The notes beneath the pieces were generated by a model. The model did no database searches and had not been told where the DNA came from. It was given only the letters and a program-made list of their open reading frames with translations. DNA of 32,300 bases from positions 1 through 32,300 of the forward strand of contig JAESTF010000199.1 of assembly GCA_016763795.1 (NCBI GenBank). The letters are read 5' to 3'. Shown here in pieces: positions 20,665-22,827 of the stretch. How positions within the stretch are numbered: the stretch's first letter is position 1; every line of letters starts with the position of its first letter. The position numbers and the translations under genes are program-made. Source of the DNA: Flavobacteriales bacterium (GTDB lineage Bacteria; Bacteroidota; Bacteroidia; Flavobacteriales_E; Vicingaceae).

Positions 20665-21009
20665 ATGAAAAAACTAATCCCTATTATAATTCTATCAATT
20701 GCTTTTGGATTTTCAATTAATACTGTTAAAGCTCAAAAAGTGTATACCGTAAAATACGAAAGCCAAGCAGATGTTAAAGTTTACATTGTAAAGTATGAAT
20801 CGCAATGCGATTTAAAGGTTTATCATGTAAAATATGAATCACAAGCAAAAAAAGATGGTAAATGGTTTAATGTAAAGTACGAAAGCCAGGCAGACAAGAA
20901 AATCTATTATGTAAAGTATGAATCTCAAGCAGATTTAAAAATTTACTATGTGGATTATGAATCTCAAGCTGGCTGGAAAAATTCTTCTAAGTCACATTTA
21001 ATGAAATAG
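20665..21009 (+). CDS. Small secreted protein of six ~13-aa KxYxVKYESQADL repeats (DUF6150-like)
   Basis: Signal peptide MKKLIPIIILSIAFGFSINTVKAQ, then KVYTVKYESQADV/KVYIVKYESQCDL/KVYHVKYESQAKKDG/KWFNVKYESQADK/KIYYVKYESQADL/KIYYVDYESQAGW. Confidence 0.85.
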   Translation: MKKLIPIIILSIAFGFSINTVKAQKVYTVKYESQADVKVYIVKYESQCDLKVYHVKYESQAKKDGKWFNVKYESQADKKIYYVKYESQADLKIYYVDYESQAGWKNSSKSHLMK

Positions 21010-21013
21010 TATT

Positions 21014-21847
21014 TTAACAACCATCAGGGCCAATATCTAATACAAACTTTTGTTTAACAGTTAATCCTTTTGCATTTTTTGCGGGATTCCATTTAGGCAT
21101 TGATTGAACCAGTTTAACTAACATGTTATCTATTTCTGTATCACCATAAGAGCTATCTATTAGAATGCTTTCGGGGTTTCCATTCTTATTAATTGTAAAA
21201 GAGATAGATGCTTGAGGTAAAAGTTTAAAATTTTTAGCTTGAATTTTATTCATACTATTTTTTTCAAAATAAGTAATCATTTGCTCATAACCATTAATAT
21301 ACTCTGCTTCTATTTTAGGGGTAACAATTAAAGATACATTCATTTGTCGGTTTTGAATTTGGTCGTTATAATTTTTCTTTTGATAATGAACATTGATAAG
21401 GATATTAGAAGAAATACTGGCTGAATTAAAAAGCTCTTTTTGTTTGCTGGTTAACGTTGCATCTAAACCTTTTGCTTCATATTCTTTACCATTTATAGTC
21501 GCTGTAATAATAACAGAGTTATAATCAGAAATCCAACTAGAAGGATAATTTTCAATAATATCGCTAAGGGATTTAGCTTTTTTTATTTTTTCTTGAGTTA
21601 TAGGTCTATAAAATCCTTGCTTGGTAAAGCCTCTAACCATATAAGATATTTTCTGTTTTACAGGAGCTTTTTTTAAGTTAGAAATTTCTAGCTCAAAATA
21701 AGTTTTGACCGAATCAGATGGTGCTACGGTAACAGGATTTGTGTTAGAATTTCTTAATTCAACATTTTCTGATTTATTGATAAATCCAAAAGCAGTAAAA
21801 CCAATAATTGCGATTATTGTACTAAAAAGTATCATCTTTTTTTTCAT
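21014..21847 (-). CDS. Secreted/anchored protein with TonB C-terminal-like domain
   Basis: N-terminal TM/signal MKKKMILFSTIIAIIGFTAFGF; C-terminal ASISFTINKNGNPESILIDSSYGDTEIDNMLVKLVQSMPKWNPAKNAKGLTVKQKFVLDI resembles the TonB_C fold. Confidence 0.75.
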   Translation of the reverse strand: MKKKMILFSTIIAIIGFTAFGFINKSENVELRNSNTNPVTVAPSDSVKTYFELEISNLKKAPVKQKISYMVRGFTKQGFYRPITQEKIKKAKSLSDIIENYPSSWISDYNSVIITATINGKEYEAKGLDATLTSKQKELFNSASISSNILINVHYQKKNYNDQIQNRQMNVSLIVTPKIEAEYINGYEQMITYFEKNSMNKIQAKNFKLLPQASISFTINKNGNPESILIDSSYGDTEIDNMLVKLVQSMPKWNPAKNAKGLTVKQKFVLDIGPDGC

Positions 21848-21909
21848 AACAAATTAATTTTTAAGATTAAATGATAGAACAAATCTAACACTGAATTGTC
21901 TTTTTTAGC

Positions 21910-21946
21910 GTAAACAGACTGTAAATTAATGTAAAACCATTGTAAA
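21910..21946. promoter_or_regulatory. Four phased GTAAA direct repeats (candidate OmpR-type operator)
   Basis: GTAAA starts at 21910, 21921, 21931 and 21942 (spacings 11, 10, 11) in the divergent intergenic region. Confidence 0.45.
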
Positions 21947-21984
21947 AGAGTATTCAGCAAAAACAAAAACTATAAATTTACAAC

Positions 21985-22827
21985 ATGAAAAAATGGAGGC
22001 TCGTATTTGTTGGAATACTATTTTTTTTCGCAGTTGAAGGATGTGAAAAAAATGATTTTGAATTACAACAGGATCATGAAGAGGTAATTATGCGAAAAAT
22101 TGGGCATGAAATTTTACTATCTTCAGGAGATACCGTTTCTTTGGTTAAACCAATTATAAAAGAAGGGAGTCAATACAGAATTCAATTTGCTACAGAATTC
22201 GGGTTTCCACCCGAAGAGTTGGCTGTTATAATTGACACTACTTTAAAAAGAGCTCAGTTTAAAGAAAATTATTTAGTGAAAGTTGAAAAATGTGCGACAG
22301 GTGAGGTGGTTTATAGCTATGAGGTTGATGTTTTTGCTCCAACACCTTTTTTAGAGGAACTAGCCTGCAAAGAGAGAGCGCAGCCAGAATCTTGTTATGA
22401 AGTAATTATTCAGTTTATTAGACCTGAACAAGGTTCATTAAATGGTTTTGTATATATATATCTAATTGTCCCTGTTTTTTTTATAGGGCTATTTTTTCTT
22501 AAAAGGAAAAAATCAAGGCTAGATAAGGATAAAATTAAAATAGGGGAATATTTATTTGATGCTCAAAAGATGACCCTTATTCGGCAGGAAAAAACCATTG
22601 AATTAACAAGTAAGGAAAATGAGTTGTTGAGTTTGTTGTATGCATCTGTTAATGAAACTGTAAATAAAGAAACGCTGCTGAATAAAGTATGGGGAGATGA
22701 AGGAGATTATGTAGGCAGAACGCTAGATGTATATATTTCTAAACTCAGAAAAAAATTAGAAAGTGATTCTTCAATTAAATTGAAGAATATTAGAGGAATT
22801 GGTTATAAATTGATTGTTGAGGATTAA
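21985..22827 (+). CDS. Membrane-spanning OmpR/PhoB-type winged-helix transcriptional regulator, periplasmic N-terminus and cytoplasmic C-terminal DNA-binding domain
   Basis: N-terminal signal MKKWRLVFVGILFFFAVEG; TM GFVYIYLIVPVFFIGLFFLKRKKSR; C-terminal IELTSKENELLSLLYASVNETVNKETLLNKVWGDEGDYVGRTLDVYISKLRKKLESDSSIKLKNIRGIGYKLIVE (Trans_reg_C). Confidence 0.9.
   Translation: MKKWRLVFVGILFFFAVEGCEKNDFELQQDHEEVIMRKIGHEILLSSGDTVSLVKPIIKEGSQYRIQFATEFGFPPEELAVIIDTTLKRAQFKENYLVKVEKCATGEVVYSYEVDVFAPTPFLEELACKERAQPESCYEVIIQFIRPEQGSLNGFVYIYLIVPVFFIGLFFLKRKKSRLDKDKIKIGEYLFDAQKMTLIRQEKTIELTSKENELLSLLYASVNETVNKETLLNKVWGDEGDYVGRTLDVYISKLRKKLESDSSIKLKNIRGIGYKLIVED

Follow-up and report, generated by a model that had tools for sequence, protein, structure and literature searches.

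A helically phased TGTAAA array is the predicted operator of a membrane-anchored OmpR/PhoB-type regulator in Bacteroidia

What reads the four GTAAA repeats that separate two divergent genes in a Flavobacteriales genome, and which genes do they control? The repeats lie in a window of 32,300 nucleotides, which is the whole stretch of DNA that we analysed; its host genome is a MAG that is 75% complete. The intergenic region (21848-21984) is bounded exactly by the start codons of a TonB-C-like gene and of the gene for a regulator with a winged helix-turn-helix (wHTH) domain. A first-pass annotation had placed the starts of GTAAA at 21910, 21921, 21931, and 21942, with three of the four as TGTAAA, and all four positions are correct. 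On the plus strand, box 1 is cGTAAA (21909..21914), and box 2 (21920..21925), box 3 (21930..21935), and box 4 (21941..21946) are all TGTAAA. Boxes 2 and 3 are the first and second halves of an invariant core, TGTAAATTARTGTAAA; box 4 lies 11 bp past the core. We propose that the array is the operator of the adjacent regulator, a membrane-anchored one-component protein of the OmpR/PhoB type, which would activate its own gene and genes for exported proteins. We put the probability of this reading at about 0.83.

The regulator (21985..22827, plus strand; 280 amino acids) has an N-terminal hydrophobic signal or anchor, a periplasmic domain, a transmembrane (TM) helix, and a C-terminal Trans_reg_C domain. 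This winged helix (residues 203–276, codons 22591..22812, plus strand) matches PF00486 with E = 2.1e-20, and the AF2 model (mean pLDDT of 89) has a single TM helix at about residues 153–175. Trans_reg_C is present in all 50 of the family members that we compared, and the hydrophobic TM segment is above threshold in 49 of them. We found no receiver or kinase domain: only Trans_reg_C recurs in Pfam among the 50 members, and the other hits are isolated weak matches. Foldseek and sequence searches of PDB match OmpR-type DNA-binding domains (VicR, KdpE, PhoB-DNA, CadC, and ToxR-DNA). Foldseek with the full regulator gave winged-helix matches only, among the matches listed, and the periplasmic domain has no match to a Pfam family. 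With a DNA-binding domain and a predicted TM helix in one chain, the protein is a transmembrane transcription regulator, a class (the ToxR/CadC/TcpP type) that is defined in a review (PMC10269533); it does not have the topology of the ToxR-like subfamily, which is an N-terminal cytoplasmic winged helix and a C-terminal periplasmic domain.

Head-to-tail direct repeats at steps of 10 or 11 bp, in phase with the promoter, are the layout of an OmpR/PhoB-type operator, and the array has this layout. The 11/10/11 spacing given by the first-pass annotation holds; the step in the invariant core is 10 bp and not 11 bp (boxes 2 and 3), and the 11-bp steps are on the flanks. In the window, the 11/10/11 four-box pattern has no second match even if up to three mismatches are allowed, and the actual site has zero mismatches. 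At the same threshold, shuffled windows gave a mean of 0.05 matches (5 of 100 shuffles had one match). With a slightly stricter four-box pattern, also at up to three mismatches, we found 12 matches in 46 related genomes, versus 0 for the reversed control. Only exact or compound patterns separate true core sites from the reversed control: a relaxed search of the window's own genome for the core, with two mismatches, was uninformative (32 matches versus 31 for the reversed control). We dropped two near-matches (G000:C60 and C202) because their neighbors are housekeeping or transport genes and they lack the geometry of the array.

Conservation at orthologous loci had been named beforehand as the test that could refute a function for the boxes. 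We ran this test, and the position, spacing, and helical phase of the boxes are kept across Bacteroidia. Upstream of regulator orthologues, the TGTAAA-N4-TGTAAA core is present at 12 of 12 letters in all 8 genomes from the same genus, and the mean score is 11.9 of 12 in 14 further genomes from the same family (the mean for shuffled sequences is about 8.8). Among 26 loci that are more distant still, most also have the core upstream (shuffle mean of about 8.5 of 12). We did not see a canonical core at the canonical place in the very distant orthologues L141, L139, L140, and L144. In an alignment of the eight genomes of the genus, the pairwise identity of boxes 2–4 is 91%, versus 39% for one flank (21889-21908), 59% for the other (21947-21968), and only 42% for box 1. 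At the regulator locus, three boxes (2–4) are conserved and box 1 is lineage-specific; box 1 is kept at some promoters of TonB-C-like paralogues. Among the closest genomes, shared ancestry could account for part of the conserved position.

The site also co-occurs with the regulator. We found orthologues of the regulator in 24 of 46 genomes from the same family (an order-level genome search gave the same set), in public MAG contigs, and, at a strict cut-off, in 41 of the 295 genomes that we sampled from the whole class. Within the family, the exact core is present in 18 of the 24 genomes with the regulator and in 1 of the 22 without it (p = 7.7e-7); across the class, correctly phased sites are present in 20 of 41 regulator-positive genomes and in 2 of 254 regulator-negative genomes (Fisher p = 1e-17). 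These p-values are indicative, as the genomes are not phylogenetically independent. About half of the regulator-positive genomes of the class lack an exact phased compound site. Both of the class-level exceptions (G326 and G160) encode, at the site itself, a more distant member of the regulator family (L216 and L220); that is, the DNA site alone located regulators that the protein search had missed. One regulator-negative genome of the family (G031, 93% complete) retains a phased site before a lipoprotein gene. In the regulator-negative genomes of the family, we found only partial matches of the response-regulator type. A short stretch of another genome (G014:C6:7944-8081) matches the regulator's end at 63% identity and has an internal stop; it is possibly the remnant of a lost regulator gene.

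The array is flanked by two predicted promoters, each with a TAnnTTTR element. On the regulator's side, the predicted -7 element is TAAATTTA (21973..21980, plus strand), from -12 to -5 of the ATG; in most other genera this element is of the TAGCTTTG type. On the TonB-C-like side, it is TAGATTTG (21880..21887, minus strand), 38 bp from the core, with a predicted start at about 21875. By sequence, these are -7 elements of the Bacteroidetes sigma-A type (TAnnTTTG at -12 to -5), with predicted start sites. In nearly all loci from the same family, the TAnnTTTR element begins at -12 from the regulator's ATG. The -7 element of Flavobacterium johnsoniae extends from T-12 to G-5 (PMC6847099), and in this register the predicted start is the A of the regulator's ATG, so the mRNA would be leaderless. 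Leaderless mRNAs are only 5.5% of the mapped mRNAs in F. psychrophilum (PMC9723704).

The distances between the array and these promoters are also constrained. The first box of the core lies 65–66, 76–78, or 87 bp from the regulator's ATG in nearly all loci from the same family and in many distant ones, which corresponds to steps of whole helical turns. From the core to the -7 box on the TonB-C-like side, the distance is 37–38 bp; it is shorter by one turn, at 27 bp, where an extra repeat sits nearer the promoter. Promoters of TonB-C-like and lipoprotein genes, whether or not they are linked to the regulator, have the core at these same distances (37–38 or 27 bp) from a TAnnTTTR box. The four boxes cover about -76 to -39 relative to the regulator's predicted start, with the genus-conserved box 4 at -44, and about -71 to -34 relative to the start of the TonB-C-like gene. 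This span matches the position of an OmpR/PhoB-type activator site relative to the predicted starts. We did not see a clear -33 element at either of the divergent promoters.

The first-pass annotation proposed that the array controls the regulator "itself and/or" the TonB-C-like protein. A TAnnTTTG-type -7 box at a fixed distance on each side supports control of both genes, and the predicted regulon is wider than was claimed. The array precedes five TonB-C-like paralogues that are not linked to the regulator, one of them in the window's own genome (G000:C162, G026:C28, G042:C5, G023:C180, and G030:C158); at two of the five, the full 11/10/11 array is present with zero mismatches. The divergent partner in other genera is a lipoprotein that carries a GGWYCPDN motif; its gene keeps the array when it is unlinked (L113 and L114). 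We also predict as targets a YceI-like protein (PF04264) and, named by eye from sequence only, serine-hydrolase-like proteins and a propeller-like lipoprotein. In the 46 family genomes, a compound search for the core, a free spacer of 20–33, and a -7 box found about 31 sites, versus 3–4 for the reversed control. Of 47 sites in the loci that the searches of family and class recovered, 45 have a spacer of 31 or 32, even though 14 lengths were allowed. The same site and geometry before unlinked genes for exported proteins is a predicted trans regulon. This regulon was absent from the first-pass annotation, as were the 10-bp core, the weak box 1, the leaderless start, and the conserved cysteines (described below); its reading of the array is otherwise supported.

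Some of these loci have features of their own. At one unlinked TonB-C-like promoter (L117, 2209-2244), the four TGTAAA boxes are at 10-bp steps instead of 11/10/11. At another locus (L121, G042:C1), the genes for the regulator and a TonB-C-like protein have the same orientation, in tandem, and the array precedes the TonB-C-like one. The GGWYCPDN-like lipoprotein family includes L113, L114, L194, and L195, and the first two of these have no Pfam match. The YceI-family members of the predicted regulon (L158, 814-1446 on the minus strand, and L174) end in cysteine (FGIC or FGLC).

We considered that the boxes might have arisen by chance as repeats in an AT-rich intergenic region, or that they might be kept by plain shared ancestry. 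AT content is high here, and words as short as TGTAAA occur often, as the two-mismatch search of the window's own genome illustrates. However, the conservation, the phasing, the trans sites, and the pattern controls argue against chance, and the boxes are conserved across families whose regulators share only about 35–40% identity, so we give chance or ancestry a negligible probability. The first-pass annotation had argued from phasing and context that the array is functional and not an accident of composition, and conservation and the controls back this argument. We also considered that another OmpR-family regulator, such as a response regulator of the RprY or PhoB type, binds the array and that the membrane protein is only a target. 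In favor of this, RprY has the DNA-binding domain nearest to the regulator's, several response regulators of this kind are encoded in every genome, and the PhoB-like half-site TGTCA resembles TGTAA. But OmpR-type response regulators persist in the regulator-negative genomes that lack the site, so they do not explain it; the two class-level exceptions turned out to be missed members of the membrane regulator's own family; and a TonB-C-like homologue beside an RprXY-like pair (G035:C190) has no array. This makes binding by a response regulator quite unlikely. Taken together, conservation, phasing, promoter geometry, the trans sites, and co-occurrence indicate that the membrane-anchored regulator most likely binds the array.

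If the regulator binds the array, it might keep its own gene and its targets repressed until a signal in the periplasm frees the promoters. Divergent pairs of a regulator and its target are often under repression, and the boxes are near the -33 regions. However, the array ends upstream of both -7 boxes and does not overlap either predicted start site. Furthermore, a helical phase that is kept across whole-turn shifts, together with the lack of a good -33 element, is typical of activators. We give repression a small chance; activation is most likely, judging solely by the position of the site and the missing -33 elements.

We propose that the regulator stays anchored in the inner membrane and that copies of its winged helix bind the TGTAAA half-sites head-to-tail, at a step of 10 bp in the core pair and of 11 bp to the further boxes. 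The array would occupy the space that separates two divergent sigma-A promoters, and because these lack a clear -33 element, it would recruit RNA polymerase on both sides. The regulator's leaderless mRNA would be under positive autoregulation, and a small regulon of exported proteins would be activated (the TonB-C-like paralogues, the GGWYCPDN lipoprotein, the YceI-like protein, and others). The periplasmic signal may act via the cysteine-bearing domain of the regulator.

This domain has three conserved cysteines, C103, C128, and C137 (codons within 22291-22395, plus strand). C128 is present in all 50 sequences, and C103 and C137 are present in 48, with both missing from the same two (L137 and L145), which suggests that C103 and C137 form a disulfide and that C128 is free. 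Disulfide or redox input is known for ToxR and TcpP (PMC7496328); given this precedent and the conserved cysteines, a similar input to the regulator is a reasonable guess.

The divergent target is an exported protein of 277 amino acids (21014..21847, minus strand) whose C-terminal domain resembles that of TonB. Its score for TonB_C (PF03544) is 23.1 bits, versus a gathering cut-off of 24.6, and TonB-CTD is at the top of its Foldseek results (E = 0.05). Its C-terminal cysteine, C277 (codon 21017-21019, minus strand), is the last residue in 20 of 20 aligned homologues and is constant though the surrounding residues vary. We speculate, with low confidence, that there is a thiol/redox circuit in the periplasm in which C103–C137 is a structural disulfide and the terminal cysteine of each TonB-C-like target forms a mixed disulfide with the free C128, giving a self-limiting feedback loop in which products of the regulon act back on the regulator. 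Just downstream of the TonB-C-like gene, and convergent with it, is a gene for a DUF6150 protein with repeated YESQA-like units (20665-21009). The distant TonB-C-like gene in G035:C190 (L119), which lacks the array, is divergent to an RprXY-like histidine kinase/response regulator pair; this layout hints that the target family may have moved between two-component and one-component regulators.

How membrane-fixed transcription factors find and activate promoters is an open question that has mostly been studied in Proteobacteria (ToxR, TcpP, and CadC). The regulator family offers a Bacteroidia-wide case with a reversed topology, a cysteine-bearing sensor, a sharp phased operator, and predicted targets on both sides. 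The system is suited to testing membrane-tethered activation, and the operator pattern alone retrieves the predicted regulon. In the open-licence papers that we searched, we found no description of the regulator family or of the operator.

Like PhoB at the pho box (1gxp), the regulator has an OmpR-type DNA-binding fold and head-to-tail half-sites that are one helical turn apart. PhoB's half-sites lie beside the upstream promoter element or replace it. Unlike PhoB, the regulator has no receiver domain or kinase, its half-site is TGTAAA instead of TGTCA, its core step is 10 bp, and there is no sign of a phosphate regulon. In NCBIfam, the DNA-binding domain matches RprY most closely (NF051850, E = 1.3e-29, far under the equivalog cut-off), but RprY is a cytosolic response regulator of Bacteroidetes with a receiver domain, whereas the regulator has a periplasmic domain and a TM helix. 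A paper on RprY that we consulted offers no consensus for its binding sites with which TGTAAA could be compared. The target resembles TonB (PF03544) in its C-terminal domain, but it is below the Pfam threshold, has an extra N-terminal domain, and ends in an invariant cysteine. Like ToxR, CadC, and TcpP, the regulator is a membrane-anchored one-component protein with an OmpR-type winged helix and a cysteine-bearing periplasmic domain. Unlike them, it has its winged helix at the C terminus and its sensor at the N terminus, behind the signal or anchor; its periplasmic domain matches nothing in Pfam; and its hosts are Bacteroidia. Among the neighboring genes that we examined, we recognised no partner like ToxS or TcpH. 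At ompU, the operator of ToxR is likewise a direct repeat (TNAAA-N5-TNAAT, from -51 to -37; PMC7496328), whereas the predicted operator described here is TGTAAA with 10- and 11-bp steps. In short, the regulator would function in the manner of the ToxR-type transmembrane regulators, through an operator that resembles the pho box.
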